Below, piece after piece: positions 4,233 through 46,404 of a DNA stretch of 64,000 nucleotides. The notes beneath the pieces were generated by a model that saw only the letters and a program-made list of their open reading frames with translations, did not search any database and was not told where the DNA came from. Position 1 is the first letter of the stretch, and every line of letters begins with the position of its first letter. A program made the position numbers and the translations under genes. The stretch comes from Symbiodinium natans (Eukaryota; Sar; Dinophyceae; Suessiales; Symbiodiniaceae), in NCBI GenBank assembly GCA_905221605.1, contig CAJNDS010002152.1:558001-622000 (forward strand), written 5' to 3'.

Positions 4233-4365
4233 TGCAGCGCGCAGGAACGCACCCGAGTGTACAGCTTCAAGGCATCGCACTGTAGTCACCACTAAGCTAG
4301 CCTCCGTTCGAAATCTGATGCCTCGTCTACGTGTGTAGTTGCCTTTACCACTTGCACGAGCCGCC
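4233..4365 (+). promoter_or_regulatory. short intergenic region upstream of the renalase-like gene
   Basis: This 133-base spacer lies between the TGA at 4230-4232 and the ATG at 4366. I see no TATA box and no clear trans-splice acceptor motif beyond scattered AG dinucleotides. Any trans-splice site for the downstream gene should lie here. Confidence 0.35.
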
Positions 4366-7300
4366 ATGGCATCAAAGTCTGCGGGCGTCGTTGGAATCGT
4401 CGGCGGTGGCATGGCTGGTGTCACTGCTGCCCGGGCTCTCAGCGGCAAAGGACAAGGGCCCCAAGAGCCAGGGTTTTGGGTTTAGGGGGTACTGTAAATA
4501 ACAATAATAGTAACAATAACAAAATAGCACTAATAATAGTATGTCCTATCTGCCCACAAAATAGGGCTACACTCATGGCCTGGAAAACCCTGAACCGTGA
4601 TTTTGGGGGGGCTTTCGCAGCTCGGCAGGGGCTGGCCTTGACCCAGGAGTGGCGGTGCGGCTCTACGAGAAGGAGGCCGCCCTGGGAGGACGCCTGGGTG
4701 CCGTGCAGCTGGGGGAGCAGTGGCTTGGGCTCGGCACCACGTACGTTAAGGCCAAGGACCCCTTGTTCAAGGCCAGGAGGAGGAAGTTGGAGGGTTGTTA
4801 AGGTGCAAAAAAAGGGGTCGGAATTTTGACTAATAACGTTCCCTAATGGCCCCCTTGTAATTGTACTATAACCCCCAAACCCTTCTTCCAATATTCAGGC
4901 CCCTAGGTTAGGGCATTCATTTGGGGTTTAGGGCTTAGGGCATCGAGGGCAGCCATTCGAAGAGGGGCATCCACGTCGAGGATCGCCATCTTCTGGTTTT
5001 GGCTAGGAGGCAGTGAGAGTGCGGGGGAATCATGGAAAATCACAAAAGGCATGTTCTAAGCTTGCATCTCTCTCTCACCATGCTTAGAAAGGGATGCTTT
5101 CTGACTTTATGCCCCCCTTACTCTTCACCTAAACCCAAATTAGACCCTAAATCCTAAACCCTTTTAATTGACACCCAAACCCCAACCCTAAACCCTAAAC
5201 CCTAAACCCCTAAACCCTAAACCCCTAAACCCTAAACCCGAAGCAAGGCGGAGATGGCGAAGTGCGAGGAGCTCGGCCTCGCCTCGGAGTGGATGGTGGG
5301 CACCCCGCATTTCATAGCTGCTTGGACTGCTTGCTCACGACCGCGGCTTAGGGTTTAGGGTTTAGGGTTTAGGGCTTAGGGTTTAGGGTTTAGGGTTTAG
5401 GGTTTAGGTTCGGGTCGCAGTTGGCGCTTCCAGCTCTTGCCTCGACCCTTCAAAGATTTGAAGTTTAGTGTGTAGGGTTTAGGGTTCAGGGTTGAGGGTT
5501 TCCAGGGGAGCTGAGGGAAGATTGCGGGGCATTTCGCCAATCAAACATGCACGTGGCAGTTTAGAGTCTAGAGCAAGTTGGCCCTCTCCCACACCTCTGC
5601 GATTTTCAAGGACTTCCGGAGGTTTAGGGGCGAAGCTGTGGACATTTTTTGAGCAGTTGGCAGGGCCCACCTTCTATTGAGGCCCAGGTGAGTATGAACA
5701 GCTGGCCCTGCTTACCATCACCACGTTTTGTGCAGGTTTCTCGATCGCGCTGACAACACGAAATTGCCGAGCTCCGCTTATTCGTCACCACAAATCCTCT
5801 TATGTTTCGTTGACGCCCGTACGGCACATATTCAAAGGCACGCCCAGCCAAACCCTTGGGGTGCGGAGCAGCAAGCCGGACATTCGTTCCACTCCAAAAG
5901 CCCTACAAAACCCTAACATAGCCCAAAAACAACCCTCAAATAACCCCACATACCCCACATAACCCTACGACACCCCAAAACCCTAAAGCCCCCTTCAACC
6001 CACCTGCCTGTCCTTAAGGCAGCTCCGGGAGACTTCAGCGAGAAGCCGGAGTACAAAGCCCCCACAGACCGCTGGCATGTGGGCCGGCCGAACATGGGCA
6101 GCTTGGTGGAGCTCTCCGCCAAGGACTTCTGAAGGAATTGGGGTTACGCTTGGGGCTTGGGGATGTGTCTATCACACAAGCGAGATTGAGCATGGCCTGT
6201 TTCAGGTAACGTAGAAAGGAGTAACTTAATGCTTCTAATGAAAAATCACGGGCATTTAGGAGTTTGCTGCTCATGAGATTTGGGCCGCCCGTGAGGACTT
6301 CGAGCACATCACTCGCTGCGGTGAAGTCGCGTCAGTCAGCTGGGAAGGGGACCCTTGTCCGCGACTTATGTTAGATCATGCTGAATTCTGAAGCATGCCA
6401 TGATATATCAACTGATGGCAGCGCCGCGAGCCACCTCTGAGGGCTGAGAGAGAGCCGCTACTCATGAAAATAGTGTCCTGACTGGGCTTGGCCGCAGGGA
6501 GCCAAGCACAGGAACACACGAGGAGCAAATGGCTGGTAAGGGCGGACATTGACTCACAGGCTTTCGCTCACTCCCCCCCTCTCTCTCTCTCTCTGTTCCC
6601 TACTTCCCTCCCCGCCTCCCTCCCTCCCTTTCACTCAGTTGCAGGGTCGTGTACTCGCATTGCAGAGCAACAAATGACAACTCTCAAGTGCTACGACTGC
6701 TACGACCCAGAGCCCAGGAGACGTGGCTGCTGAACGGAAGCTTGGCCAGTATTTTTCCCAGCTCAAGTAGGGTCTTGCATTGACCGACCAGGAAATCAGG
6801 ATAGGCTTAGGGTTTAGTGTTTCGTGTTTAGGGTTTACGGGGCTGAAGGGGCTGGTTGTTGCGAGGAAGGTGCTTGGTTTGCCTACGCCACTCTGCAGGC
6901 AGCGACCCGGTTTCGGCACTGATCTTGGCACTGCCATTGGCTCCGCTGCGATCGCTGCTTCCGGCGGGGCGGGGGCCACGATGGAACATGTTGGGGGTTG
7001 ATGCTGAACCATTCTGGAGGAATGTGCCGTTAAACTGTACTAGAAAAGTGACCATCATCTGACCATCCTTTAGATCAACTCCCATGTGCAGCAAACTTGT
7101 GCCGAACTTTTCTTGGTACAGGCGGGGACAGTCGAGGGGATGCTGCCGACTGACCTGCTGGAGAAGGACTTTGAGAAGGCTCGGATGCCAAGTCTGCATC
7201 GCGGGGGCAGCGTGAGCCAGACCCAATGAAGCTTAAACTCCACTTCGTGTTGTCCTTTAGGCCTATTAAGGGGTTTAAGGTCTAGGTTTAGGGTGCTGCG

Positions 7301-8771
7301 GCAACCAGTGATGCTCACAAGATGCAAGTCTGTTCGTGGCCCGGCCAGGCGCGGGTCGCGGCCGATGCTCGCCTGGAGATGTGGGCCCGAGCCCACCCTT
7401 AAACCCTTAAACCCTAAGTCCCTGAGCCACTTTTGAAGTCCCTGTTTAAAACTCTTGTAAAGCTCCAAAAGACCTAAACCATGAAACCCTAATTACATCA
7501 AACCCCTCTTAAAGCCCCAAAGGCCCCTTGAACCCTGAACCCCTCTGGCCGCGCCTGCAAATCTCTGCTAGCCCAGGCTTGGGTCTTTGCGGCACCGCTG
7601 GAGCTTCCCTTCAGGATAGCTTTCGCCTCTCGGCCCTAGATGCAACAATCTTTTTCTAAAACAAATCTGTTGATGACAATCAACGGCAGTTTGGGCCCCG
7701 TTGGTTGGGATTTATGTGCTCTGGGCTTCCTATAACTATTGCATGCCGGACCTGCCGAGGTCAAAGACTCTCCGATCTCTCTTGTGTTGAATGACTCTTC
7801 GCGTGCCACGCAAGACGGCGCGAAGGCCGGGTTCGTTGTCGTCTGCCCGAGTGGAACCTCCGGTCTAGCAACCCTAAACCGCCTTGGCGTACCCAGTTCA
7901 GGTCGAGGCGTGGGTGGCGCAGACCTCGACCGAGTGGGCAGCTCAATGCATCAAGGATGCCATGCCAGAGGCAGAGGTGCCTTCGCCTTTGCCAAAACCC
8001 CCCCCCTCCCCCACCAAGAAAGGGCAGCCTGGCTCTTTGACGCACTGTACCCTCATAAGCCCTAAACCCTATAAAACCTGTAAACCCTGTAAACCAGGCA
8101 AAAAGCCTGTAAACCCTGCAAACCTTATAAACCCTATAAACCCTAAACCCGTAAAGAAGCCCCGTGAAGGTGTGCGCTGTGCTTCTCCGCGAGCTGAGCC
8201 GAATCCTTGGAAAAGAGCTACCTCCAGTGCAGCACCAGAAGGTTCGATCCTCAGCCAACGCGAACTTGAATCTGAGTCAGGGAATCAGGGAATCAGGTAC
8301 CTTAATTCCATCACCCTAAATAAATAGCCCTTTTCAGGGGGTTACCCATTCCCCTAGTAGGGAGCTCGGGAAGTGGACAGGCCCTGACATGGGCCTATGG
8401 CGACATGGACTACAAGCTTCCCGAGGGACATGCCTGGGACGCGACGAAGCGCCTGGCTTTGGCCGGAGATTGGTGGGGGGCCCGTGCGAAAGGGGGCCGG
8501 GGGGGGGGGGGGGGGGGGGGGGGGCATGATCCCAAAAAAGTAAGCTTCGTGGTTGTCTGAACCTTAACAAAAGTTTCGTGGTCGTCTGAACCAAAAGTTT
8601 AGGGAAAAAACTAGGGTTTTATGGTGGTTAGGGCTTAGTGTACTATGGAATCCAAAACCAGAGGGCCCGGATTTCAGAAAGCCTGTCAGGTGTTACAACG
8701 GGCGAGTGGAGGGCGCCTGGCTGAGTGGCCATCACGCTGCCCAGAAGGTGTTCGAATCTCTCGGGGTTTAG
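4366..8771 (+). CDS. Renalase-like FAD-dependent amine oxidase
   Basis: Probably an FAD/NAD(P)-dependent oxidoreductase of the renalase type. Reassembled exons: 4366-4444, 4629-4771, 5248-5295, 6019-6117, 6260 to about 6350, 6899-6963, 7122-7191, 7322-7350, 7760-7825, 7902-7976, 8170-8241, 8381-8472 and 8690-8771, about 330 codons in all, the usual family length. The start codon has a GCCGCCATGG context. Seen motifs, in order: GIVGGGMAGVTAARAL (dinucleotide-binding loop), VRLYEKEAALGGRLGAV, GTTYVKAKDPLFKAEM, DRWHVGRPNMGSL, ALILALPLAPLRSLLP, EAWVAQTSTEWAAQ, ALTWAYGDMDYKLPEG, and LALAGDW joined across an intron to CYNGRVEGAWLSGHHAAQ. The joins keep phase with GC donors (4445, 4772, 6118, 6964, 7351, 7826) and GT donors (5296, 7192, 7977, 8242, 8473). 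Eleven of twelve acceptors are AG followed by G. Weakest parts are the borders of exons 3-5 and the short exon at 7322. The stop TAG (8769-8771) is part of a TTTAGGG array. Confidence 0.82.
4445..4628 (+). other. GC-AG intron 1 of the renalase-like gene
   Basis: Opens GGCAAAGG with GC as the donor and ends CTCGGCAG before GG. The join AGC-GGG-GCT gives LSGAGLDP, continuing the strand that leads into VRLYEKE. It contains one degenerate heptamer and an AATAAC-rich stretch. Confidence 0.7.
5160..5408. repeat. telomere-like arrays around exon 3 of the renalase-like gene
   Basis: CCCTAAA-orientation heptamers at about 5160-5240 precede the acceptor GCAAG at 5247. TTTAGGG-orientation heptamers at about 5347-5408 follow exon 3, so the exon stands between arrays of opposite orientation. 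Confidence 0.8.
6571..6634. repeat. CT-rich simple sequence in an intron
   Basis: (CT)n followed by CCTCCCTCC-type sequence inside the intron before exon 6 of the renalase-like gene. Confidence 0.85.
8499..8524. repeat. 26-base G run in an intron
   Basis: Uninterrupted G tract in the last intron of the renalase-like gene, 26 bases after the GT donor at 8473. It could form a G-quadruplex, and its length in the assembly is uncertain. Confidence 0.85.
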
Positions 8772-8830
8772 GGTTTAGGGTTTAGGGTTTAGGGTTTAGG
8801 GTTTAGGGTTTAGGGTTTAGGGTTTAGGGG
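8763..8830. repeat. TTTAGGG array supplying the stop of the renalase-like gene
   Basis: Nine near-perfect heptamers. The last sense codons read CTC GGG GTT and the next triplet TAG comes from the first heptamer. The following ATG-opened frame starts at 8831, directly after the array. Confidence 0.85.
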
Positions 8831-14716: not shown

Positions 14717-15030
14717 GCCGGAACTGCCGAAGCTTTGTGTTCCGCATTTTCCGCTGCTGACAATGAAATCTCCGGCCCTTGCTTCTGAGAGATCTGCGGT
14801 GCAGTTGTACTGACCTTCAGCGCAGAGGCTTTTTTCAAGCAACAAGCCCCAACTTCGGAATCCACCCGAGTCTTCGCAGCGTGACTCCGGCTCAAAGGCG
14901 TCGGATTGCGGAGAACCAAGTCTGAGCAGCTTTTTAGCAGCTTTTTAGCAGCTTTTTAGCAGCTTGTTAGCAGCTTTGAGCTCTAGGCCAGGAAGCTTTA
15001 GGCCATGTCAGGGATGCAGCAGGTGCCCGG

Positions 15031-15506
15031 CTGGATTTTGAGAGAGAGGTTGCAAAGGCGAAACCCTCAATTCCCCAGCCATTCCTGAGCCCTGCGAGGT
15101 CCTAGACCCTCGAAGCATCAAGAAGCATCAAGAAGCCCTAGAATCTCCGGCAGAAACCCCAACCGCCTCCAAAAGAACAGAATTTGTGGTGGGCTGTGAC
15201 AATGCTAACAGCCCCCACTTTCGGTGCCATGGCATCTTGCCTCGACTGGCTTGCGTTCTGCAGGCCGGGTTGTGGGTTTTGGGCTTCATGGCGGAAGGGG
15301 TTCTGAGGCTTTTGGGGGTCTGCGGGATGCTGATGCTTGCAATGCCGACACAATGGCCTCTCCATCTTCAGCTGGGACACGTCTTTGCTGTTCTGAATGG
15401 AGGAAACCCCCTCCCCCCCCTCTGCAACACGAGCAGTCAGAAGTACTCAGGGCCTTTGAGTGATCGCCTCATTTGCATGTACGACGCGACACGGCTCGTC
15501 GTCTAA
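15031..15506 (+). pseudogene. frameshifted copy of the EREAAKAKP open frame, unit 1
   Basis: Same sequence as the open frame at 29431-29924, but one C is missing in the CATTCCCC tract. The frame therefore ends early (PSIPQPFLSPARS, then TAG). The 3' part is open again from 15186. Confidence 0.5.
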
Positions 15507-15973
15507 ACTAGCTTCGTCCTGCTTCACTCGCTGCGAAGGTGCTCCATGCATCACGGGTTTTGCTTCTCATTTGGGGCCATTCTGATCCCTGATACGCAAT
15601 AAAATACAAAACACGGGGCGCATAGGTTGATGCCTAACGGGACCGTGAAACAAGCGAAGAACATGACCAAAATAGCTTGCGTACAATGGCTTAAGCACTG
15701 CACATGCTGCAAGGATAAAGTTGCTGCAAACGAGGAGCAGCACGTTTTAGTTTCTCATTAGATCCCCCCGCGCAGCTCGAAAGAGTTTACAACTTCTCCT
15801 CCCCGTTCTTGAGCACCCGTTCCTTCGTATGTACGGCGTGGCCACAGGATTTGCTCTGTGCCAACGCGCCAGAAGGAGGCCAGGGATTTCCAGATTGATA
15901 TGTGAACTGGGAAAGAGCACAGAGTTCAGCGGTAGGTGGGTAGGAGCGCGAAATGGTAAGTCACATGCCTGAC

Positions 15974-16207
15974 CCATGACCAGGTCAAGACGTCGCCATC
16001 TTCGAAAGCACTGGAAGATGGTGCAGGACAAACCCCGATGACCACCGGCTCCTCATCAGCATGTGTGACCGCGGGTTTTGGGCAGACAGCCGCAATCGTG
16101 CTACTCTTCCGTGCCCCACCGCTCTTGCAGCCCTGAGGCGGACTCAGTTGTGGGGATCCGTCGCCATCCAGCTGGGGGTCATCGCCAACTTCTCCAATCA
16201 CAGAGGA
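15974..16207 (-). CDS. acidic, proline/serine-rich exon, unit 1
   Basis: The exon opens after a CATCTCCCACCAG acceptor at 16207 and ends in phase 0 before a GTCAGG donor at 15973. Its 78 codons include SSVIGEVGDDPQLDGDGSP, THADEEPVVIGVCPAP and AFEDGDVLTWSW. Five copies in the window are all open, with only scattered substitutions. I do not recognise the protein. It is low-complexity and acidic, possibly a linker. Confidence 0.5.
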
Positions 16208-16404
16208 CTGGTGGGAGATGGTGCAAAGCGATGTTTTTGGTTTGAATGTCAATGGCAGGATTGAGGATGCTCCAATCGAAATCAAGGGAAGATCATGTCT
16301 ATAGTCGATGGGAAAAACCCAGTATCAGTACGTGCTGATTTGCTCTGGGCCTCTCTAGGCTGGCCGTAGCAAAATGCCGGAGACATGCATACGGAGAGAT
16401 CTGA

Positions 16405-16493
16405 GAGCTCCAGTTTTTGCAGGAGCTAGACGATGAGGAGACTGATTCAACATCGGTAACATCGGCAAAGGAGGCCTCGCTTTGAGTGCGCAC
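16405..16493 (-). CDS. serine-rich acidic exon, unit 1
   Basis: Reads TQSEASFADVTDVESVSSSS, then SSCKNWSS. It lies upstream, in - strand order, of the acidic exon at 16207 and is probably the same gene. The same frame is open in units 3 and 4 but has a stop codon in unit 2. An overlapping frame at 16597-16355 (NWDHREPQPREVLSEEMLGA) is also open and could be the preceding exon. Confidence 0.4.
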
Positions 16494-16796
16494 TTAAACT
16501 CTCGCCCACCTTTGGCACAAGCTCCTAACATCTCCTCACTAAGAACTTCTCTGGGTTGGGGCTCTCTGTGGTCCCAATTTGTGGGAAGTGGATTCAATCG
16601 GACTGGGTGCGTTTTCGTGTGCTATGCGGGCTATGCGCTTGTTTCCTTACTCCCTCTGCCCCAAACACCGTTCCTAACCCTTATCATCAACCATATATGT
16701 CTTTATGGGTCAGGGTCCCCTAGTTACTCGGCCGTTTCTGTAGCTACTGCGCGGGCCTTTTCTTTCTTGTGTTTCTACCCCATCCCAGGCAGGGGA

Positions 16797-17420
16797 GGGG
16801 TCCGGAGCCCGGAGGCCTCCCTAAGCTACCCCCCGACCCTGGAAAGGTCGAGGCTTCAGGCTTCAAGTATCCCTTCTTCTCGAGAAAAGCTTATGCCTTC
16901 CTGAAAACCGAAGGACTGAGCACTGGGCCCCGGGAGACTTGCATTATAGCAGGCCCCCAAACAAAGGTATTAAAGTGTGTCCGGAGGCCTCCGTAAGGTA
17001 CCCCCTTTCCGGATATGATTCGCCTATGGAATCATCTAGTTTTAAGTAAGGAATTTATCAAGAAAAGGCGCCCTGAAAAAAGAAGATTGTCGGAGATCCT
17101 GGACAGGTCGAGGCTTCAGGCTTCAAGTATCCCTCCTTCTCGAGAAAGCTTATGCCTTCCTGAAAACCGAAGGACTGAGCCCCTGGCCCCGGGAGACTTG
17201 CATCATAGCGGGCCCCCAAACAAAGGTATTAAAGTGTGTCCGGAGGCCTCCGTAAGGTACCCCTTTTCCGGATATGATTCGCCTATGGAATCATCTAGTT
17301 TTAAGTAAGGAATTTATAAAGAAAAGGCGCCCTGAAAAAAGAAGATTGTCGGAGATCCTGGACAGGTCGAGGCTTCAGGCTTCAAGTATCTCTCCTTCTC
17401 GAGAAGCTTATGCCTTCCTG
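16797..17420. repeat. 259-bp tandem repeat, about 2.4 copies, unit 1
   Basis: GAGGCTTCAGGCTTCAAG recurs at 16850, 17110 and 17369. The unit includes TCCGGAGGCCTCCGTAAGG and CGCCTATGGAATCATCTAG. The period is not a multiple of three, so the recurring open frames are not one repeated protein. Confidence 0.85.
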
Positions 17421-18119
17421 ACACCCTCAAAAAAACAGTCACGGCCCGAAAACTTTTCATTATAGCGGACCTCCAAAACAAAGGGTCCAGATCCTCAATA
17501 GCCGAAAAACTTTTCATAATAGCGGCCCCCTAGAATATTGCGGGTGCAACATTACGAGAAGGGTTCAGGGCCCCATCGAAAGGGCTACAATTTCGAGATG
17601 TTTAAATACATGTATATGCGTGTATGTACATATGTATATGGTATAGGTATACGGGCATGTATGTATCTGTATGTGTATACATATACATATATATATGTAT
17701 TCATTTAGAAACACATTTTATGCATGTATGTATGTATGCATGCATGCATGGATGTATGTATGTATGAACGTACGTAGGTATATAATTCTGTGTTTATGGG
17801 CAAGCGAACAACTTCGACGAATTATGCCGACACGCCGCCTCAAGGATCTGGCCTTGGCCGAAACACCCTGTGTGCCCAAACAATCCCAAACCAAACCCTG
17901 AACAAGCCTATAAGGCTCTCAAACACGGGATCATCTCCAAACCCCGGGCCCCCTGAAGAGACTTCGCGAGGCAGCGAAGATGCTGCTGTGGCTCGACGAG
18001 ATCGAGAGCCAGATCCAGGTGCCCCGCTTGGCGCAACGACTTCGGTGGGATCCGTTGGCAGTTCTGGGGCTTCGCGGGAGTTCGCGTGGCCGACAGAAAG
18101 TTCGTCGCACCCCTGCAAC

Positions 18120-18732
18120 TGTTTCAAAGGCCATCGAGTTGTAGAAACCCCTCTTCCCCGTCAGGCTCATCCACAAATCCGGAGAGGTCCATGCATGTCT
18201 GCGTACCCTGCGCGCACAATTGTTTGTGCCTGCTCGCCTGTGTAGCGGGGCCTGAGCTTTCTGCGACATTCGGCGATTCTCTGTTGCCGCAGGTATGTGT
18301 TAAACGTATTCAGTTTCATCGCGGCTTGCTGCTGCAGAAGCTCTAGAGCTTCCTGCGGACAGGGCACAAAGAAAGATCCGCAAGCATGAGTCGCCCATTA
18401 TGTCCATGCCTTGGGATGTTCCCTGTTTTACTAGCAGTCCTTCATCGGGATTCAATAAATGGGGGGGTACAATTATAGAATCCTTTTGAGGACTGTGAGA
18501 AAGCACATTGAAGGCCGGCAGCAGATTCAACATGACCCCCAATCCCCGCCTGCTTTCTGAGACCTTCTAAGCAGATGCTTAAAGTTTTTCGCGTTGCCAT
18601 ACGCACTTGCGGCAACCCCACTTCCCGGCTGGACGCCTCCACAAGACCGCGGAAGTCCTGCTCGGAAAGAGTCAAGGCCACAGTATTCGCAACTTTCCTG
18701 CAGTCCGCATCCTCCGCCCATGTCTGCATCCC
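18120..18732 (-). CDS. Intact three-exon gene fragment of block A, unit 1
   Basis: Exon 18732-18550 follows CGGGTATTCAG and has ATG at 18729. It reads MQTWAEDADCRKVANTVALT, LSEQDFRGLVEASSREVG, LPQVRMATRKTLSICLE, and ends KQ at a GC donor in phase 0. Exon 18352-18252 follows TGCCCTGTCCGCAG and reads EALELLQQQAAMKLNTFNTY, then LRQQRIAECRRKL. It ends phase 2 at a GC donor. Exon 18207-18120 follows TTGCGCGCAG, whose G completes an arginine codon, and reads VRRHAWTSPDLWMSLTGKRG, then FYNSMAFET, before GTTG. The last intron would be only 44 bases. Predicted mostly helical. I do not recognise the family. Block B carries a frameshifted relative. A GC-rich frame on the + strand (KRLREAAKMLLWLDEIESQI, about 17950-18020) lies downstream and may be a separate gene. 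Confidence 0.5.
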
Positions 18733-19426
18733 CTGAATACCCGGAATGGGAACGAAGGAGCACCCTATAGAGCCTAGAGGGTGTATGCATAGAGCCTAGA
18801 GGGTGTATGCAAAGGGACCTTTGAAACCTGAAAGCAAAGGTTGCCCAACCTCGGAACACTATCAGGTTGGCCATGACGGGTGCGTTTAGTGCAGCTGAAG
18901 ACGTCCCATACAAGAAAACAGTAATGTAGCACTGCAGCCAGCAGCTGTTGCTGCCTCACCGCGATTGCGTTTGAAGAGTGCATGTTGTCGTGCTTTTCTA
19001 CTTTCCGTGGATGCAAAGGCTAGCAGAAGGTCGCACAGTGTTTGCCCGCTCAGCGAAACATGTCCTCGATCTTTGTGACTCCGCCTGTACGTCGGCGCGC
19101 GGGGTGATGTGACGGAGAGGGGGCACGAAACTGCACAGGTCTCAAAGACATCTGAAACTCCTACGAAGGTGGCTCCCTTCGTCCGGCGGCCGCGGCTTCA
19201 GGAGTCGAGCCTGGGTTTTTGTTGTTGGGAGGGCTTTGGCGTTTGTGGATTTTGTGGGGTTCGGGGTGTTGCTGTTTGCGCGCTGTTGAGCTGCTGGCCC
19301 CCTGCTATGACACCCCCGCGTCATCTTCGGTTTCTTTCCCTTTTTTCGGGGCCCCTGCACTGATGGTTCTGGCTGGCTACGGGGCGCCCAGCTGAAGAAA
19401 TGGTCACAAAGATCGGGCTTAGGGTT

Positions 19427-19460
19427 TACGGTTTAGGGTTTAGGGTTTAGGGTTTAGGGC
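19427..19460. repeat. TTTAGGG array in block A, unit 1
   Basis: Five heptamers, one changed to TTTACGG, before GCACCTGCGGTGTGAGC. The same site in block B holds a longer array. Confidence 0.8.
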
Positions 19461-19818
19461 ACCTGCGGTGTGAGCTCCAGTTTCCTGCAAACCACGGGGA
19501 AAAAGAAAAGGCAGCGCAGCACACTGTTTTGAACCAAACTCGCCTAGCGTTGTAAGAAAGATAACAAAGGTTCAAGATAAGCTCTTTTTTCTCATGTTCT
19601 GTGCTCGGCTAAGAGCATGAGACAATATGAGACAGGCCACCAAACCCTTCCAAAGGGCCCCCAGAAAATGGCCCAGGCAGATGGGGGGGAACTTGGGGGG
19701 GAACCGGACACCTCTTCACCGGCTTTCCCTTCACCTTAGCAAATGTGGGCGGTTTACGAGAATAAGGACCCCAAATCTCGGAACCCCCCCAAATCGCTGC
19801 CAACGTTCCGCGCGAAAG

Positions 19819-20123
19819 GAGTCCGCTCTCCAGGCTGCGCACGAGGCTGCGCAGGAGGCTGCGCGGGAGGCTGCGAAGGCCTCCTGGGAAGAAGGAAACA
19901 AACCCAAAGGGTTTAGGGTTTGGGGTTTAGGGCACAGGGCTTGGGGTTTCGGGTTGTGGTTCAACATCCGCAAAGGAGACCTCATAAACTACCAAAGCGC
20001 TCCAACCAGCTTTCTGAGATCTTTGTAGGCAGATGGAAAGCCGGGCCCGGCGGAGCGCCGGCGACTGCAGGAGTCGAGCCTGGGTTTTTGTTGGGAGGGC
20101 GTTGGCATTTGTGGATTTTGTGA
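19819..20123 (+). CDS. Ala/Glu-rich helical exon and following exon, unit 1 block A
   Basis: Exon 19819-19910 follows GCGCGAAAG and reads ESALQAAHEAAQEAAREAAK, then ASWEEGNKPK. This is an alanine-rich heptad-like helix. It ends in phase 2 exactly where a telomere-like tract supplies a GTTTAG donor. A second exon may open at 19976 after CCGCAAAG and read RPHKLPKRSNQLSEIFVGRW, later GVEPGFLLGGRWHLWIL, ending TGA at 20121-20123; its phase fits. Block B has the same helix (ESALQAAREAAREAAEASWG) but different sequence after the intron. Family unknown. Confidence 0.45.
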
Positions 20124-20382
20124 CTTCACCGACAGGGGCTTCTAAACCGTAGGGTTTAGGGCCTTAAGAGCATAAAGGGCTTATTGTGGGCCTTAGATTA
20201 GATTTCGGGTTTTGGGTCCGTGAAAAAATTTTGGACCAATTGGACTTTGAGCTTTAAGCCTACCGGGAAAGTATTGAGTGAACTTTATATTTTCTCAATG
20301 TTATGGGTTTCTTGGGTGGGTGGGATTTCTTTCCAACGCTTGACAAGCTGCTTGACTAGTGAATGCTCGGACTTGAGATGCT

Positions 20383-20487
20383 GAACCCTGAACCCTGAAC
20401 CCTGAACCCTGAACCCTGAACCCTGAACCCTGAACCCTGAACCCTGAACCCTGAACCCTAAACCCTAAACCCTAAACCCTAAACCCT
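20383..20487. repeat. GAACCCT and AAACCCT array, unit 1
   Basis: Eleven GAACCCT units (20383-20459) are followed by about four AAACCCT units. Units 3 and 4 have only four GAACCCT units at this place. Confidence 0.9.
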
Positions 20488-20492
20488 AACCA

Positions 20493-21190
20493 AGCGTGCT
20501 TCAAAGCCCAAGAAACTAGTTGAAAAAACATTGTGTTTGCAAGTGGGGGGGGGGGCTGCGCCCCCCCAAACCCCACCGCCTCTTTTTTTTGAGCCGTGCA
20601 GAGCGTGACCCCCCCACGCTTCTTTTAAGCCGCACCAAGCATGCTTCAAAGCCCAAGAAACTAGTTGAAAAACATCGTGTGAGCATTGTGTTTGCAAATG
20701 GGGGGGGGGCTGCCCCCCAACCCCCCCGCTTTTTTTGAGCCGTGCAGAGCGTGCTTCAAAGCCCAAGAAACTTGTTGACACCCATCATGTGGGCAGGGTG
20801 TTTGCAAATGGGGCTGGGGCTGCGCCCCCCCCAACCCCCCCCGCTTTTTTTAAGCCGTACCAAGCGTGCTTCAAAGCCCAAGAAACTAGTTGAAAAACAT
20901 CGTGTGAGCATTGTGTTTGCAAATGGGGGGGGCTGCGCCCCCCCCCCAACCCCCCCGCTTTTTTTAAGCCGTGCAGAGCGTGCTTCAAAGCCCAAGAAAC
21001 TTGTTGACACCCATCATGTGAGCAGGGTGTTTGCAAATGGGGGGGGGGGGCTGCGTAAGCCGTACCAAGCGTGCTTCAAAGCCCAAGAAACTAGTTGAAA
21101 AACATCGTGTGAGCATTGTGTTTGCAACTGGGGGGGGCTGCGCCCCCCCCCAACTCCCCCGCTTTTTTTAAGCCGTGCAGAAAGGAGTGT
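20493..21190. repeat. GC-hairpin tandem repeats, unit 1
   Basis: About six copies of a unit near 118 bp: AAGCCGTNCNNAGCGTGCTT, CAAAGCCCAAGAAACT, then GTGTTTGCAAATGGGGGG, CTGCG and a C run, then CGCTTTTTT. The G run and C run pair as a hairpin. Two subtypes alternate: CTAGTTGAAAAACATCGTGT and CTTGTTGACACCCATCATGT. This gives a dimeric higher-order pattern. Confidence 0.9.
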
Positions 21191-21406
21191 CTGTTTTGCC
21201 ACCCAAGACATATATACATATATATATATACACACATGCACACTAAAATATACATATCTTTGCGTCGAATGCGGTAAGTTTTTTTGATGGAGAGAAAGTT
21301 TTTTTTTGATGGGTCAGGTGTCGTCCAAGAGACTCAAAACCTCTTGTAAACTACCAAGGAAAGTTTTGTTTTGATTGGGAATAAGTTTTTTTGATGGGTT
21401 TTCCAG

Positions 21407-21523
21407 GAGGAACTCGACCGCGAGGCCGAGGTGCCTTGCGAAGCACAAGACGGCGCTCCTTTGGGGAATGAGTTGGGGATCCTAGTAGCTAAGGGGGGGT
21501 TGGTAAATATTTGTGAGATTTGA
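21407..21523 (+). CDS. Terminal exon EELDREAEVP, unit 1
   Basis: Opens after TGATGGGTTTTCCAG and reads EELDREAEVPCEAQDGAPLG, then NELGILVAKGGLVNICEI, ending TGA. It has no ATG, so it is an internal or terminal exon. The frame is open in all four units. The only difference is GAA to GAG at the second codon in unit 2, which is silent. Upstream lies T-rich intron-like sequence with a repeated TTTTTTTGATGG. A further open stretch (VGRFKVDALKLQCAVV) follows near 21537. Family unknown. Confidence 0.5.
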   Translation, partial: EELDREAEVPCEAQDGAPLGNELGILVAKGGLVNICEI

Positions 21524-21905
21524 CCAGGCGTAGTGGGACGCTTCAAAGTTGATGCGCTGAAGCTGCAGTGCGCTGTGGTTCGAGGGGGTTGTTGCTGCGA
21601 TCCCCCGATCTCAGGGTTAGGGCGAAGTACACTTCGATAGGGGTTTTTAGGGATCGAGGATATTAAGCTTCTTGTTGCCGGTCTCCCGCAGTGCTTTGAA
21701 GCTTCGATTGGAGCTAGAACCCGGGCTGCAAGGTTTCATAAAATTTCCCAACGCTGCTAACTGTCTCCTCGCAACCTGCCGCGCTCCGATGATCCGCGTC
21801 GCGAACCATGCTCACTCCACAGTTCCTAGTGCGTGCTGGTAGCTTTTCCCTGGCAAAACTTGTTTGTGTCGATTCTTAGTGAGCCTTTGTTCTTCCAAGG
21901 GGATC

Positions 21906-22038
21906 TCAACACCGCGGGCCCGGAGGGACATGATTTTCGCCCAGACTTGTATGCGTAGTTTGTCTTTGTGAGCTCTTCATGTTTTCAAGGAGTTCCAAAA
22001 CCGAAGGCGGGACATCAAACCTTGCATAGAAGGTCTTC
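21906..22038 (-). CDS. Exon RKTFYARFDVPP, unit 1
   Basis: Opens after AAGGTTTCAG and reads KTFYARFDVPPSVLELLENM, then KSSQRQTTHTSLGENHVPPG, with a stop at 21908-21906. It is probably spliced before that stop, at a GTCTGG donor. An overlapping frame reads SLRARGVEIPLEEQRLTKNR and may be the next exon. It is present in all four units. Family unknown. Confidence 0.4.
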
Positions 22039-22872
22039 CTGAAACCTTTCAAATTCAACCTTTTGCTAAGTTCAGAATGTCAATCAATGGGATGCCAGGA
22101 GCGACTTCCGACGCAAAGCAGGGACGGGCAAGGGGGCGTGGATGATGATGCGGCTAAGGCAGGACCAGTTGGACCAGAAAAGTGGAGCAAGTGGTGCAAG
22201 TGGTTCAAGTGTCCGAAAGCAGTTTGCAGTCCACTTGCCCCCCCCCCCCCCATCCTACTTCGCTGTTCTGCACCGCCCAGCATGTGCAGGACTGGCGCGG
22301 TTAAGATACGAGAAGGGTTCAGGGCCCCATCGAAAGGGCTACAATTTTCGAGATCTTTAAATGCATGTATATGCGTGTATGTACATATGTACCTGGTATA
22401 GGTACACAGGCATGTGCAATGTATGTATCTGTATGTGTATATATTTATGTAGAAACACATCTTAAGTATGCATGTGCGCATGTCCAATCAGTGTATGTAT
22501 GTATGTATGTATGTAGGTAGGTATATGATTCTGTGCCCCAAAAATCCCAAACCAAACCCAAAACAGGCCTATCACGAAAACACGGGATCATCTCCAAACC
22601 CCGGGCCCCCTGAAGAGACTTCGCGAGGCAGCGAAGATGCTGCTGTGGCTCGACGAGATCGAGAGCCAGATCCAGGTGCCCCACGACTTCGGTGGGAACT
22701 GTTGGGAGTTCTGGGGCACAGAAAGTTCGTCGCACCCAACTGTTTCAAAGGCCATCGAGTTGTAGAAACCCCTCTTCCCCGTCAGGCTCATCCACAAATC
22801 CGGAGAGGTCCATGCATGTCTGCGTACCCCGCGCGCAAAATTGTTTGTGCCTGCTCGCCTGTGTAGCGGGGC

Positions 22873-23350
22873 CTGAGCTTTCTGCGACATTCGGCGATTC
22901 TCTGTTGCCGCAGGTATGTGTTAAACGTATTCAGTTTCATCGCGGCTTGCCGCTGCAGAAGCTCTAGAGCTTCCTGCAGGGCACAAAGAAAGATCCGCAA
23001 GCATGAGTCGCCCATTATGTCCATGCCTTGGGATATCTTGGGATGTTCCCTGTTATACTAGCAGTCCTTCATCGGGGTTCAAATGGGGGGGGGGTGCTAT
23101 TGTAGAATCCCTATTGAGGACTGTGAGAAACCACATTGAAGGCCGGCAGCAGATTCAACATGACCCCCAATCCCCGACTTTCTAAGCAGATGCTTAAAGG
23201 TTTTCGCGTTGCCATACGCACTTGCAGCAACCCCTCTTCCGGCTGGACTCTTCCGCAAGTTCGCGGAAGCCATCCCCCAGAGGAGTCAAGGCCGCAGTAT
23301 TCACAAATTTCCTGTGCTCCGCATCCTCCGCCCATGTCTGCATCCCCTGA
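22873..23350 (-). pseudogene. frameshifted relative of the block A gene, unit 1 block B
   Basis: Reads TWAEDAEHRKFVNTAALTPL, then FRELAEESSRK, clearly related to the intact copy at 18732-18550. Loss of one base after AGCCGG then shifts the frame, which ends at a stop after QRENL. The sequence around the exon-1 donor is also deleted. Exon 2 (22973-22873) keeps its acceptor and frame. Confidence 0.55.
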
Positions 23351-23786
23351 ATACCCGGAATGGGAGAGAAGGAGCACCCTATAGAGCCTATAGGGCGTAT
23401 GCAAAGGGACCTTTGAAACCTGAAAATGATCAGGCTGGCCATGACGGGTGTGTTTAGTGCAGCTGAAGACGTCCCATACACGAAGGTGACTCCTTTCGTC
23501 CGGCGGCCGCGGCTTCAGGAGTCGAGCCTGGGTTTTGTTGTTGGGAGGGCTTTGGCATCTTGCGGGGTTTTGTGGGGTTCGGGGAATTGCTGTTTGCGCG
23601 CTGTTGAGCAGCTCGGGCCCCGTGCTGCGATGACAGCCCCGCGTCATCTTCGGTTTCTTTCCCTTTATCGGGGCCCCTGCACATGGTTCTGGCTGGCTAC
23701 GGGGCGCCCAGCTGAAGAATTGGTCACGAAGATCGGGCTTAGGGTGTAGGGGTGTTTAGGGTTTAGAGAAGAGACAACAAAATGGG

Positions 23787-23858
23787 TTTAGGGTTTAGGG
23801 TTTAGGGTTCAGGGTTCAGGGTTTAGGGTTTAGGGTTTAGGGTTTATATGGTTTAGGG
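23787..23858. repeat. TTTAGGG / TTCAGGG array, unit 1 block B
   Basis: About nine heptamers with two TTCAGGG variants, ending TTTATATGGTTTAGGG. Confidence 0.85.
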
Positions 23859-24335
23859 CACCTGCGGTGTGAGCTCCAGTTTCCTGCAAACCACAGGGAA
23901 ACAAGAAGAGGCAACACAGCACACTGTTTTGAACCAAACTCGCCTAGGGTTGTGAGAGAGATAAAAAAAGTGGTTCAAGATAAGCTCTTTGTTTTTCATG
24001 TTCTGTGCTCGGCTAAGAGCATGAGACAGGCCACCAGACCCTTTTAACGGGCAAGTTTGCAGTCCCAGAGGCCCCCAGGCAGAGGTGGGGGGGCTTTCCT
24101 TCACCTTAGCAAATGTGGGGGTTTAAGAAAATAAGGGACCCCTAATATAGACCCCCAACTCATAGAATTCCCTTATAATCAGGACCCCAAAAGGGCGCCC
24201 CAAATCTCGGAACCCCCCCCAAATCGCTTCCTCAGTTCCGCGCGAAAGGAGTCCGCTCTGCAGGCTGCGCGCGAGGCTGCGCGGGAGGCTGCGGAGGCCT
24301 CCTGGGGAGAAGGAAACAAATCGAAATCGTTAGGG

Positions 24336-24414
24336 TTTGGGGTTTGGGGTTTAGGGTTTAGGGTTTAGGGTTTAGGGTTTAGGGTTTAGGGTTTAGGGTT
24401 TAGGGTTTAGGGTT
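24336..24414. repeat. TTTAGGG array after the helical exon, unit 1 block B
   Basis: About eleven heptamers. Unit 2 has about eight units with two TTTGGGG variants, and unit 3 is down to about three. The array sits between the ESALQAAREAAREAAEAS stretch and FNIRKGDPAKALQISETL. Confidence 0.85.
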
Positions 24415-24773
24415 GCGGTTCAACATCCGCAAAGGAGACCCTGCCAAAGCGCTCCAGATTTCTGAGACTTTGTAGGCAGATGGAAAGCCGGGCCCGGCGG
24501 AGCGCCGGCGACTGCAGGAGTCGAGCCTGGGTTTTTGTTGTTGGGCGTTGGCGTTTGTGGCTTTTCTGGGGTTCGGGGTGTTGCTGTTTGCATTGTTTGC
24601 GCGCCTTTGAGCTGCTCGGCGCATGGCGTATCGTGCTGCAGCGTGTCAGTCTGACGGCGGTACGCTTTTTCACAAAGGGCGGGGTCTGCACCCCCCCCCC
24701 CCCCAGCCCACCCGTATTTTGTTCAAGCCGCGTTATCTTATGAATCCTGTCCAAACCCCATCATGCATGATGC

Positions 24774-25014
24774 GTGCATAGTGCCCCTGCCACAGCACCC
24801 CCAGCAAAGACTCAGCCACCCACACCAGCAACACTCGCACCGACTAGGCCGCAGCCAGCAACACTTGCCCTGGCACCTATTGGCCTGCCGTCCCCCAATA
24901 GCCTACCGATGGAGCGAATCAACAGGTCGACTCACCGTTCGGAGTGGAAAGGCTTCGCAAGGTCCTGTGAGAACAGCCCGGGGGCTGATGAGTTGAGGAA
25001 AGCATGGAATGCTG
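24774..25014 (+). CDS. Pro/Thr/Ala-rich linker and WKGFARSCEN exon, unit 1
   Basis: Reads PATAPPAKTQPPTPATLAPT, then RPQPATLALAPIGLPSPNSL, then RSTHRSEWKGFARSCENSPG and ADELRKAWNA, ending at a GTGTTTG donor (25015). A low-complexity linker is followed by a charged domain-like stretch. The frame is intact only here. Unit 2 has a net 16-base loss and unit 3 an 8-base loss within the charged part. Family not recognised. Confidence 0.45.
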
Positions 25015-25432
25015 GTGTTTGCCAAAAGGAAAGGCTGCGTCCTCCCCGGCCCCCCCCGGCCCCCCACCCCCCCGCCCCCCCACTGTTGCGCGAGCTGCTC
25101 GCGAGCTTGCTTCACTCCGTATGAGTTCCTGTCCCGAACCCCTTCATGCGAGCATTCTGTTTGCAAACGGGCGGGGGAGACAACAGAAATCCTGGCCAAA
25201 CGCCAACATGCGACCGCTGTGTTTGCAAATGGTAAGGGGGGGGGTTTGCGTCGCCGCGTTTTTCCTTTTTTTGAAGCCGTGCAAGCTTGCTTCAAAACAT
25301 TTCTAGAAAATATATATATACATACATATGTATATTTACATAGTACGTGAATGTGAATAATGTGAATTCTGTCGAAACCCGTTCATGCATTTTTTTTGTG
25401 CAAGTGGCGGGGGCGAGGGGGGAGGGGGGTGC

Positions 25433-25456
25433 GCCCCCCCCCCCCCCCCCCCCCCC
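25433..25456. repeat. poly-C tract, unit 1
   Basis: About 22 C in a row in the diverged hairpin-repeat region. The length differs in every unit. Confidence 0.8.
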
Positions 25457-26583
25457 ACACCCCCGTCTTCTTTGAGCCATGCGAGCTGGCTTCACAACAT
25501 ATGATCCTGTCCAAACCCCATCACGCGAACATTGTGTTTCCCGCCTTTTTAGCGAAACACACACTGTGGTGCCCCAAAGATCGATTCGTGCTTGTCAGGA
25601 GCACACTTGTTTTGCAGGTTACCTTTGTACTTCCATAGGTGAATGGGCTTTACAAAGTTACAAAAGTAGCGATGACCGCAAAGTATTTCGGCCTTTTGAG
25701 TTTAGGATTTTGGGCCTGCCCATGCCCCGAAAAGTTTCACCGAAACACTATGACTGCGTGCCTATTTTTGGAGAAACTTTGAATTTAAATTTATCCCGTA
25801 TCTATGTGTTTAACACTGTTTTGGGGCCTCGCCAGGTCCTTCGGTTCAATCGAAGCCGTGCGAGTACAACATATGAATCCTGTCCAATCCCCATCATGAG
25901 AGCATTGTGGTTCCCCGCTTGTTTAAGCCGCGCGAGCTTGCTTCAGTGATTCAGAACATCTGAGTCCTGTCCAAACCCCATCATGCGTGCGTTGTGTTTG
26001 CAATGCGGAGGGGGGGGGAGCCCGGGTGTTCCAAATCCCATCATATACGAGCGTCCTCGCCAACGTGGTACCATTCCAAAAGTGAGCGCGAATTGCAGCG
26101 CCGCGTGCAGGGGTGGGAGCGTGCTGGGTGGGAGTTTAGCGTTTCTCTCACGTATATCCTTGTGGTTCTCAACTCCTTGAGAAGCCCACAGCTCATCTGA
26201 AAAGCACCTCAAGAGCCTCCAAAGCCATTTGCTGGATCAAATTGCGCTTGCTGTCTCAATTGCGCATATTGTGCGCGTCTGCCTCACGAGTGTGAGGTGC
26301 GCCCCGTGAGGCCGTGAGGCAGCACGCAACTATCGGGGAGGCCTTAGACTTGCCACCCGAAACCAAAACAAGTACCAAAAACACAACCTAGCTGCCAGTA
26401 GCTCGGCCAATTCGGCCACAAGCATGAGAAACAGAAGAGCCTGACCCCGCTACTGGGTAGCAACGGGGGAGGCCAGGGGACGGGGAGGGCAGGGGCAGGC
26501 TTGGTCCTGGAAACCTGGATTCCTGCACCCTCCCAAGCCCGAATGGTGCTCCTATTGTTTGTTCCCCTGCTTCATGTTCGAAG

Positions 26584-26879
26584 GAGGCGGAGCTGGAAGC
26601 GGCCCGAGAGGAGGCCACCCACGCAGCTCTAGAGGTTGTAGGAGTTAGGGGCCTTCAAGAACGGAAGCTTCGGAATCTGAGGGAGTATTTCAACTTTCCA
26701 GCCTCGTTGAGCCTTGCGCAAGCTATATAAGGCCCAGAGGCTCTTCCGACACATGCCGAGCCAGTCCGGCCCGACAGGACTGTGTAGTCGCCGAGGTTAA
26801 AGGCCGCGCGGCTCTGTTGCACTCCATCGTTGAGGAGATTGAGGAGGAGGCGCTCGCATGCGCTCGCTGGCTGAGTCAG
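26584..26879 (+). CDS. Two helical, glutamate-rich exons, unit 1
   Basis: Exon 26584-26634 follows TTCGAAG, reads EAELEAAREEATHAALE, and ends phase 0 at a GTTGTAGG donor. Exon 26796-26879 follows TCGCCGAG and reads VKGRAALLHSIVEEIEEEAL, then ACARWLSQ, in the same phase. Both are charged and helix-like, possibly a coiled coil. The pair is open in units 1-3; unit 3 has a Glu to Asn change and one further substitution. It may be the 5' part of the Gly/Met-rich gene downstream. Family unknown. Confidence 0.45.
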
Positions 26880-27624
26880 ACTTGAGGCTTTACAGGGGCT
26901 TACAGGCGGACTCATATGGAAACTTCGGGAAGGAATTCACTGGTGCGGGTCGCGTGTGGGGGGTGGTTACTCTACAAAGCCGGAGGCACCCTGAACTGGG
27001 CTTGCAGGGCCAGAATCTTTGGTTGGGTTTGAGGCAGCGTGCCCAGCTTGTTGTCCGCTACCAAGAACGGCATGCGAGTGAGATGAAATGTGGACATGAC
27101 GTGGCCTAAGTCAGGGCACCTTCAGACTGCCCCACAACACGAGCAGCATGTCAATGTGAACTAACGCGCTCCTTCATCGGGAGCAGCTGAGCTCACCACA
27201 CTGGGTATCCCTCTTCAATAGCATGCTGGGACGCTAGGTAGAAGAGAGCTTGTCAGGCATCGCTGCAGCAAGCGCAGCTTGCCAACCACATGGGCGGCAT
27301 CCACAGGCGTTGGTCTCAGTCCGGGGCATGAGCAGCATGGCAAAAAAGCGTGGCGAAGAGCGGTGCAGGTCGATGTACGCCCCAGGCGTGCCGGTCCTCC
27401 TGGCAGAAGTTGAGCTGGAAGGTTTCATGCTTTCTCCTGGTTGACTACATATCTGCTGGGCAGGTTTAGTGGTGGTCAGGTTCGGGTTGCCATGGCAGGC
27501 GATGACCATGCAAACGCAAGTCCCGCAGCAGGGTGTCCGGGCCCTTTCTGCTGAAAGCGCCTGGCCTTGGGTGTCGTTCACTTGTTTTCCGTGGTTGCTG
27601 TGCGTTTTGTGTTTGCTCTACCAG

Positions 27625-27951
27625 GCCCCTGCTCCGGCATCTCCGGCCATGGGTGGCATGCCTGGTATGCCCGGAATGGGCAGGCCGTGTGCCCAGTTCT
27701 GAAGTGCAGTGGCAACCTCAACGCCAGTGTAGGGTCAACAAAGTGAGCACATGTGAGGACAGTTTTCTTCTCACTCTTCTCACCTTTTGCCCAGGATGTA
27801 TGGCGGTGGCTCCTATGGTCCCATGGGCGCAAACGTCGGTCAGGCGTAAGACTTCGTGGAAACCGCGGAAGTTGGGAAGGTTTGAGTGCCGAGTTTGGTG
27901 AGACACAAGGCTTACGGTGGAGCCTTCGGTGGCTCAGCCTCTGGAGCATGA
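27625..27951 (+). CDS. C-terminal exons of a Gly/Met/Pro-rich protein, unit 1
   Basis: Exon 27625-27683 follows TTTGCTCTACCAG and reads APAPASPAMGGMPGMPGMG. It ends phase 2 at a GC donor. Exon 27795-27843 follows a strong pyrimidine tract (CTCACCTTTTGCCCAG), completes an arginine codon, and reads MYGGGSYGPMGANVGQ, ending phase 0 at GCGTAAG. Exon 27910-27951 follows GACACAAG and reads AYGGAFGGSASGA, then TGA. Both joins keep the frame, and the glycine-rich composition carries through. Introns are 111 and 66 bases, both GC-AG. GGMPGMPG-like tails are known from chaperones and RNA-binding proteins, but no domain is visible. All three units keep these exons. Confidence 0.6.
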
Positions 27952-27978
27952 TGCCCAGCTTGGCGTCTCACGTGCGAA

Positions 27979-28250
27979 TGAGCTGCCCTGAGATCTCCCA
28001 GCACATGAGAACCGAACTCTGGGAGGTTTTTCAGGCTTCGCAGTCCCAGCTTGCGAACCAGCAAGGGCAGCTCTACCGGTCAGATGCTGAGCACGAGCAC
28101 CATTGTGCCACGCGTTCCTCCTGCTTTTCTTTCTGCGTGAGCTTGGGCAGGACCCGGTTCTTGCCGCCTGGCCACGTTGTCGCAGCTGTCGCAGGCACCG
28201 GGAGCTTGGGGGCTCAGTTGTTCATCCCCAGACGACGGATTTCTTTTTAG
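27979..28250 (+). other. open stretch downstream of the Gly/Met-rich exons
   Basis: Contains MRTELWEVFQASQSQLANQQ and GQLYRSDAEHEHHC. It may be 3' untranslated sequence of the preceding gene or another exon, and is conserved in units 1-3. Confidence 0.25.
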
Positions 28251-28289
28251 GTCGTTGGCAGACCGTATTTCTCCACACCCGTAATACTG

Positions 28290-28529
28290 CTAAACGACCG
28301 TAAAACTGATCCTCCTGTCCAGAGGCAACGGAACGAGCATAAGTAGGCATAGAACACCCGTAGAACGACCGAAAAGAAAGTAGAAGCTTGTTCGGGGCGC
28401 CCTGCAACCCCGCATGATTGTAAACACCGTCAATTCACGGGCCCGACCGTTGACTTCCGCGTAAAGCATTTCCTCGCCATGCTGATAGCCTGGCATGCCG
28501 CCGCATGCCAGAATGTTACATAATGCCAT
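28290..28529 (-). CDS. Open frame MALCNILACGGM, unit 1
   Basis: ATG-opened 79-codon frame reading MALCNILACGGMPGYQHGEE, then MLYAEVNGRARELTVFTIMR, with a hydrophobic C-terminal part (STGVLCLLMLVPLPL). Present in units 1 and 3. In unit 2 a 4-base insertion shifts the 3' end, so the frame runs on. A second frame over the same bases (SFYGCSMPTYARSVASG) is also open, and the choice is uncertain. Confidence 0.35.
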   Translation of the reverse strand: MALCNILACGGMPGYQHGEEMLYAEVNGRARELTVFTIMRGCRAPRTSFYFLFGRSTGVLCLLMLVPLPLDRRISFTVV

Positions 28530-28815
28530 CGTATGCTTTACAAGATCCTGACGAGCATCTAAGCACCAAGCCCTTCAACAGTACATAGTCAAATGGAGTT
28601 CAGAAGCCACATGCGCGCCCAAAGCATCCCGAAGTCTAAGCTTCAAGCCCCCAAACCCTAAGCTCGCCACCTGTCAGTTTCAGAGATGTGGTAGTTTGTG
28701 TGAGTCTCTGCAGCTGTACTGGAAGGATATCGTTCGAGATCCTGTTTCCAACCATCCCCGTGTTGTCTGACTGGAGCTTGAGGTCTGAGGTCAGGCCTTG
28801 TGACAGGGCTGGATC

Positions 28816-29230: not shown

Positions 29231-29430
29231 CCTTTAGGGCGCTGGTAGAGGCTTTTTCAAGCCAACTTCGGGAATTCACCCGAGTCTTCGCAGCGTGACT
29301 CCGGCTCAAAGGCGTCGGATTGCGGAGAACCAAGTCTGAGCAGCTTGTTAGCTAGCAGCTTGTTAGCAGCTTGTTAGCAGCTTTAGAGCTCTAGGCCAGG
29401 AAGCTTTAGGCCACTTCAGGGATGCAGCAG

Positions 29431-30625: not shown

Positions 30626-30814
30626 CTGGTGGGAGATGGTGCAAAGCGATGTTTTTGGTTTGAATGTCAATGGCAGGATTGAGGATGCTCCAATCGAAAT
30701 CAAGGGAAGATCATGTCTATAGTCGATGGGAAAAACCCAGTATCAGTACGTGCTGACTTGCTCTGGGCCTCTCTAGGCTGGCCGTAGCAAAATGCCGGAG
30801 ACATGCATACGGAG

Positions 30815-46400: not shown

Positions 46401-46404
46401 AACC

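Follow-up and report, generated by a model that had tools for sequence, protein, structure and literature searches.

In this study we analysed a stretch of 64,000 nucleotides from the dinoflagellate Symbiodinium natans, here called the window (bases 558001-622000 of a 633,930-base contig, in an assembly of 759.4 Mb and 2543 contigs). Near its start lies a renalase-like gene whose introns hold short arrays of the heptamer TTTAGGG or its complement CCCTAAA. TTTAGGG has been reported as the telomere unit in dinoflagellates (PMC11453091, PMC11508785; here and below, citations refer to excerpts of the papers named). We show that sampled exons of some genes in this genome are bracketed in the order CCCTAAA–exon–TTTAGGG, and hence that introns of such genes carry inverted telomeric repeats.

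A renalase-like gene with telomere-type arrays

When joined, exons 1-4 of the gene match bacterial renalase (PDB 3kkj, E 1.5e-7; 4zcc, E 2e-7), and the last exon alone does so at E 2.7e-4. Spliced as AAG|GC...AG|GCG, exons 2 and 3 give a gap-free alignment across their join, and intron 2 accordingly reads GC-AG and not GT-AG. Judged from the last-exon match and the translation, the last intron would read GT-AG if GDW joins CYNGRVEGAWLSG. The features are:

4364..4465, + strand: exon 1 (translation and joined-exon 3kkj match; two possible ends, at a GC donor (4453) or a GT donor (4466))
4470..4487, + strand: degenerate TTTAGGG tract, donor side of intron 1 (repeat scan)
4628..4774, + strand: exon 2 (gap-free exon 2/3 alignment; ends AAG before the GC donor; its start varies with the exon 1/2 junction chosen)
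4920..4938, + strand: TTTAGGG-strand tract in intron 2 (repeat scan)
5144..5239, - strand: CCCTAAA arrays, acceptor side of intron 2 (repeat scan; they end 8 nt before exon 3)
5248..5295, + strand: exon 3, AEMAKCEELGLASEWM (renalase match and translation; inferred end; lies between CCCTAAA and TTTAGGG arrays)
5348..5408, + strand: TTTAGGG array, donor side of intron 3 (repeat scan; starts 52 nt after the inferred exon 3 end at 5295)
5961..5987, - strand: degenerate CCCTAAA tract, some 32 nt upstream of exon 4
6019..6124, + strand: exon 4, DRWHVGRPNMGSLVE (renalase match; 3' end not fixed)
8361..8472, + strand: penultimate exon, LALAGDW (translation; inferred GT donor at 8473)
8690..8771, + strand: last exon, GRVEGAWLSG (renalase match and translation; TAG stop within a heptamer array)
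8764..8829, + strand: perfect TTTAGGG array of 9.4 units at the 3' end of the gene (repeat scan)

A first-pass annotation of this DNA had placed heptamer tracts in several introns of the gene (4445-8830), and this is borne out: several tracts lie in introns flanked by exons with homology support, and the window holds 195 near-exact TTTAGGGTTTAG matches (at most one mismatch, both strands) against 0.30 expected from shuffles. Its CCCTAAA tract just upstream of the acceptor at 5247 is likewise there, ending at 5239. The annotation had also named GTTTAG donors after 1301 and 19910 and a CCCTAAA tract running into a CAG acceptor at 1623. The letters are as described at all three places, but no homology speaks for their use as splice sites, and 19910 lies among the tandem units described below.

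Of the 12 renalase edges with an array no more than 250 bp away, 9 have the nearest one on the C strand if upstream and on the G strand if downstream. The rule fails at the short intron 1 as seen from exon 2, at exon candidate 7902 and at a degenerate tract before the last exon. Introns 2 and 3 contain hundreds of bases besides their arrays. The stop codon of the last exon (TAG, 8769-8771) falls inside the array at 8764-8829; array insertion may therefore set protein ends. No Pfam family was found in stop-masked frames of the + strand (4001-13702 and 14401-24202) or the - strand (20001-29702), which is weak evidence of absence because the same scans also missed the renalase exons. Rfam and tRNA scans of the window were empty.

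Abundance and orientation of the arrays

The renalase-like gene is only one site among very many. Counting overlaps, the exact telomeric dimer occurs 1,788,098 + 1,787,600 times in the whole assembly (about 3.58 million), compared with 257 + 280 (537) for a control. We also sampled 17 ten-kb stretches at fixed coordinates, seven of them on the window's own contig and two of those adjoining it. Heptamers cover 0.47-21.7% of these stretches (mean 6.0%; 4.6% in the window), arrays of at least 12 bp are present in 13 of the 17, and the median array is 45 bp long (n=196 arrays, joined with a wider gap). From this abundance it follows that the renalase-like gene is not special in this genome. The tracts are restricted neither to introns nor to this gene; they represent interstitial telomeric arrays, short in length and spread across this dinoflagellate genome. 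Karenia gives a different picture, with interstitial telomeric signals rarely seen by fluorescence in situ hybridization (PMC6395649).

Array orientation can be examined even where gene models are lacking. A CCCTAAA–gap–TTTAGGG pair (-+, with - for the CCCTAAA and + for the TTTAGGG strand) is its own reverse complement, and the test therefore needs no knowledge of the gene strand. Genome-wide, with an exon-sized gap of 80-110 bp, we counted 83,227 C-then-G against 35,412 G-then-C pairs; the counts were 143,516 against 134,098 at 300-330 bp and 2,282 against 6,284 at 0-30 bp. These figures are pattern matches and not independent events, since long arrays are counted several times and adjacency is not demanded.

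Local samples point the same way at short range. In the 17 stretches and window positions 1-14000, neighbouring arrays separated by 60-300 bp gave 40 -+, 22 +-, 16 ++ and 24 -- pairs. With a laxer detector the -+ excess lay at 75-150 bp (33 vs 16) and was reversed at 300-600 bp (4 vs 16). Counting all dimer pairs, we obtained 398 -+ vs 115 +- at 120-220 bp (two bins added), 12 vs 90 at 300-400 bp and 298 vs 254 at 600-1000 bp. The strong reversal in this small sample was not reproduced genome-wide, where the two orders are near parity at 300-330 bp. The flanks of 216 arrays differ as well: over 20-80 bp the GC content is 0.575 beyond the CCCTAAA end and 0.531-0.535 on the other side (p 1.2e-4 at 20-40 bp, 1.7e-4 at 40-80 bp), with no excess at 80-160 bp. 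Such an extent is as would be expected of an exon-sized island beyond the CCCTAAA end.

Dynein genes allowed us to examine the orientation around exons placed by homology. The dynein family PF12774 has 37 matches in the assembly, 20 of them of at most 100 bp. We picked 16 of these 20 before seeing their flanks and fetched 180 bp on each side; four short matches (two on contig C1831, two on C1757) and the 17 longer ones make up the remainder. Arrays stand on both sides of 9 of the 16 exons, which belong to four contigs or genes (C1812 four, C1971 two, C96 two, C204 one), and in this small set the genes split completely into array-bearing and array-free ones. Among the nine bracketed exons the nearest upstream array is CCCTAAA in eight (the exception is L042) and the nearest downstream array is TTTAGGG in all nine. 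Of these 18 nearest arrays, 17 thus follow the rule (one-sided p 7e-5, for edges that are not independent as they come from four genes). Counted in heptamer bases, the upstream flanks contain 734 on the C strand vs 89 on the G strand, and the downstream flanks 541 G vs 63 C. The gap between array and exon match is 6-83 nt upstream and 0-50 nt downstream. The annotation is supported in that tracts occur in introns and close to exon edges, CCCTAAA on the acceptor side and TTTAGGG on the donor side, as seen in the genome-wide counts and in the sampled dynein exons.

Some dynein matches lie in very long open reading frames (3242 aa at G000:C2492:208221-209204 and 2650 aa at G000:C1790:1317058-1317762), while paralogues are cut into exons of 20-30 codons. 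This suggests that intron-poor and intron-rich copies coexist in one family. Another bracketed exon was noted in L015: the joined peptide has a TPR_2 match (6.5e-11) that is strongest over the first exon, while the bracketed exon alone gives no match, so that a TPR exon is only suggestive here.

A further search used the 21-mer of the dinoflagellate spliced leader. It has 104 forward and 101 reverse exact matches in the assembly, compared with none for the reversed control, in agreement with a dinoflagellate host. Six of the matches lie in G000:C479:102078-129887, with a usual spacing of about 3.8 kb; they may mark a tandem gene or a spliced-leader cluster.

Array insertion and the origin of introns

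The first-pass annotation had proposed that telomeric-repeat insertion is a source of introns. One part of this proposal, that such arrays do insert, is supported by the window from 14849 onwards, where long tandem units allow copies with and without an array to be aligned:

14849..64000, continuing into L015: tandem units of 10-15 kb (self-comparison; several arrays recur at matching places)
23535..23560, + strand: empty site TTGGGAG/GGCTTTGG, no array (site 23548; tandem-copy alignment)
34242..34267, + strand: second empty copy of this site (site 34255; tandem-copy alignment)
49471..49549, - strand: CCCTAAA array of 79 bp filling the site (tandem-copy alignment)
63709..63752, - strand: CCCTAAA array of 44 bp filling the site in a further copy (tandem-copy alignment)

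The units are 92-99% identical in long matches (95.5-99.1% among the listed matches longer than 2 kb). The same site is also empty in diverged copies at 19232 and 59432 (segments about 73% identical), which makes insertion likelier than deletion. At this one site, with two filled and four empty copies, the insertion was precise, with at most 1 bp duplicated, and the insert contains little but repeat units. As read from the aligned copies, the array appears to be a recent, precise and sudden insertion with junctions of the repair type. Elsewhere in the units arrays differ between copies by whole 7-bp units. A variant array of CTGAACC type (20381-20491) continues directly into CCCTAAA units, with a length difference of 49 bp between copies, as if the variant heptamer had been amplified on its own.

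Other repeats and frames were seen in this region. A minisatellite with a period of 259-265 bp lies inside the units (16838-17421 and 31256-31844). None of ten long open reading frames of the units scored above the Pfam curated cut-off, and one, searched against PDB, gave no match; the frame at 19621-20025 has a sub-threshold DUF2486 match (E 0.006). Outside the window, in L014 (about 9155 to 6560 bases before its start), there is a self-similar tandem segment with 6-bp indels (GAATGA/GAGTGA), possibly a coding repeat.

The second part of the proposal, that insertion makes the intron, found no support in the dynein genes, where array-bearing and array-free paralogues can be compared at the same boundary. 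At the LK|A/V boundary a G array begins at intron base +45 in L043 and +7 in L055, whereas in two array-free paralogues the complete intron (59 nt in L049, 76 nt in L053) lacks heptamers and ends in AG. At the VAxQ| boundary arrays are found in L051 and none in L052; at the TK| boundary they are found in L046 and L050 and none in L047. Hence the boundary position is common to array-bearing and array-free paralogues at all three exon ends compared. Nor does the heptamer bring its own GT donor, as had been suggested: all nine homology-placed dynein exon ends read AG|GC (6) or AG|GA (3) and the arrays start at +7 to +47 of the intron, so the heptamer is not the source of the donor. GC/GA intron boundaries have been reported in dinoflagellates (PMC11453091). 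Most simply, arrays in the compared cases seem to have entered introns that already existed, and in some genes only. It is possible that the order was the opposite, with ancestral array introns losing their arrays, but this needs loss in several paralogues.

How the arrays may persist beside exons

Our preferred reading, to which we give about even odds (roughly 0.5), is that the introns were there first, and that arrays inserted into them are retained next to exons chiefly in the orientation compatible with splicing. Arrays would enter by precise insertion, most likely via telomerase or telomeric DNA or RNA at DNA breaks, with telomerase inferred as the agent. They would then grow and shrink in 7-bp steps, in keeping with the unit-number differences between tandem copies. 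Beside exons, mainly the orientation that splicing tolerates or uses would be kept; this role of splicing is inferred. On the CCCTAAA strand before AG, a C-rich tract with CTAAAC motifs might serve as pyrimidine tract and branch site; on the TTTAGGG strand after the donor, GGG triplets might act, and perhaps the two arrays pair across the intron. Insertion would be frequent and exons would be purged of arrays, which cannot stay there because both the sense strand (TAG) and the complement (TAA) contain stops.

It might also be possible, at odds clearly below even, that splicing has co-opted telomere repeats throughout the genome as an orientation-specific scaffold, with CCCTAAA as acceptor tract and branch region, TTTAGGG as donor-side enhancer, and pairing across the intron. 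If true, the chromosome-end machinery would supply exon-definition sequence in one class of dinoflagellate genes.

Several results weigh against our preferred reading of splicing-compatible persistence in pre-existing introns. Seven of the 16 dynein exons, on five other contigs, have no heptamer within 180 bp. In five HSP70 gene copies none of 25 gaps (6,426 bases) contains an array of 14 bp; they hold 33 heptamer bases, and one gap (L039) has a degenerate C-strand tract. An enrichment of tracts in introns, as implied by the first-pass annotation, is therefore not general. Two Cpn60 exon loci (L028, L031), from a gene set of only 6 matches, have no array of 14 bp within 180 bp either. Given these gaps, loci and array-free dynein exons, arrays are not needed for splicing. 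At the renalase gene the rule is followed at only 9 of 12 edges, exon candidates 7902 and 8166 are without homology support, and two introns fold only modestly better than shuffled sequence (z -2.87, equalled by 1 of 100 shuffles, and z -0.99, equalled by 4 of 20). AG and CAG are not clearly enriched just past the CCCTAAA end (CAG 122 vs 104 of 216). HSP70-trained coding scores are only slightly higher in -+ gaps, and the coding signal is weak, with p<=0.05 in 8/34 -+, 1/15 +-, 1/10 ++ and 3/16 -- gaps. The splice sites discussed here are all predicted. Finally, the polarity of array synthesis could itself be a source of orientation.

This last point leads to one of the two strongest rivals, both of which we regard as unlikely. 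Breaks in introns might have been capped by telomerase and rejoined, leaving head-to-head scars with G on the donor side and C on the acceptor side, and splicing would play no role. Capping gives left-TTTAGGG and CCCTAAA-right ends and so predicts the G-then-C order inside introns, and head-to-head pairs at 0-30 bp indeed exceed the reverse (6,284 vs 2,282); such close pairs are few, however, beside the 83,227 exon-sized C-then-G pairs. The nearness of dynein arrays to the exon is also unexplained by the joining of capped ends alone, as judged in 180-bp flanks that leave the distance between arrays mostly outside. Head-to-head telomere fusion as the main source of arrays was set back, since close pairs are few. 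The other strong rival is growth from seeds, in which telomere-like splice motifs were extended by slippage or telomerase and the orientation follows existing splice signals. Whole-unit differences between copies, perfect units flanked by degenerate heptamer-like ones and the position of arrays beside exons all agree with it, but for one array the empty copies of its site (GGGAG|GGC) contain no heptamer that could have been its seed.

That arrays landed in coding sequence and immediately served as introns, with a GT donor from the heptamer and an acceptor tract from its complement, as first proposed for this DNA, we consider improbable. In its favour, arrays often adjoin exons (at several dynein edges the exon match is 0-10 nt away), one array was inserted recently and precisely, GT occurs in the heptamer and CCCTAAACCC can run into CAG. 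Yet three dynein boundaries are common to array-free paralogues, two of them with complete introns, and the dynein donors are GC or GA; renalase introns 2 and 3 hold much more than arrays, many exons and gaps are array-free, and no exon has been demonstrated around the single insertion found. A mobile element with telomere-like ends, such as an Introner, is a very improbable carrier: dinoflagellates have Introners (review PMC11453091) and those of Amoebophrya bear inverted repeats at their ends (PMC7789003), but the one insertion has no target-site duplication beyond 1 bp and consists of little but repeat units. Least credible of all is an artefact of assembly or library. Repeats are hard to assemble and the contigs are of mixed length, but the arrays lie inside long contigs, their flanks are common to paralogues, and the orientation rule is tied to protein-coding homology.

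Among the matches listed in the open-access literature, judged by titles and abstract openings, we found no description of telomeric arrays bracketing exons. Interstitial telomeric sequences have been described as scars of DNA breaks, attributed in mammals to break repair, probably with telomerase (PMC7215372). The arrays resemble these in being short and interior, in their one-step insertion into an empty locus and in their variable unit number. They differ in their number, 3.58 million overlapping dimers in one genome, and in following a strand rule with respect to exons and lying, in some genes, at the ends of introns. Being abundant and tied to exons by strand and distance, they offer many cases within a single genome in which to test whether break-repair inserts shape splicing; natural controls are available where gene copies differ in having an array at a given intron position. 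Exon-bracketing arrays are thus a test case for the interplay of telomere DNA and splicing.

With Introners (PMC9860276; in dinoflagellates according to PMC11453091) the arrays share a repeated sequence near dinoflagellate intron ends. Unlike with Introners, the boundaries are common to array-free paralogues, and the one insertion has no target-site duplication longer than 1 bp; introns at new positions, an Introner trait, were not found at the three dynein exon ends compared. The Introner screen removed low-complexity families after manual examination (PMC9860276), and for this reason introns with arrays would probably have been missed by it. The inverted repeats of Amoebophrya introner elements are said to let exon boundaries join (PMC7789003); here too the arrays at the intron ends are complementary and could in principle fold the intron out, with a modest folding gain in the two renalase introns examined. 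Those elements have repeats of 8-20 nt in families of repeated introns, whereas ours are telomeric arrays of tens of bases. Gained introns in Amorphochlora (PMC12730881) are similar in that simple repeats occur in introns specific to a lineage, of which nine lie at AG|GN sites, but they carry AT repeats, belong to another lineage and have no orientation rule in section 3.4 of that paper. The dynein introns, as placed by homology, are of the dinoflagellate GC/GA-AG type: AG|GC or AG|GA is read at 9/9 exon ends, and AG closes both of the complete introns.

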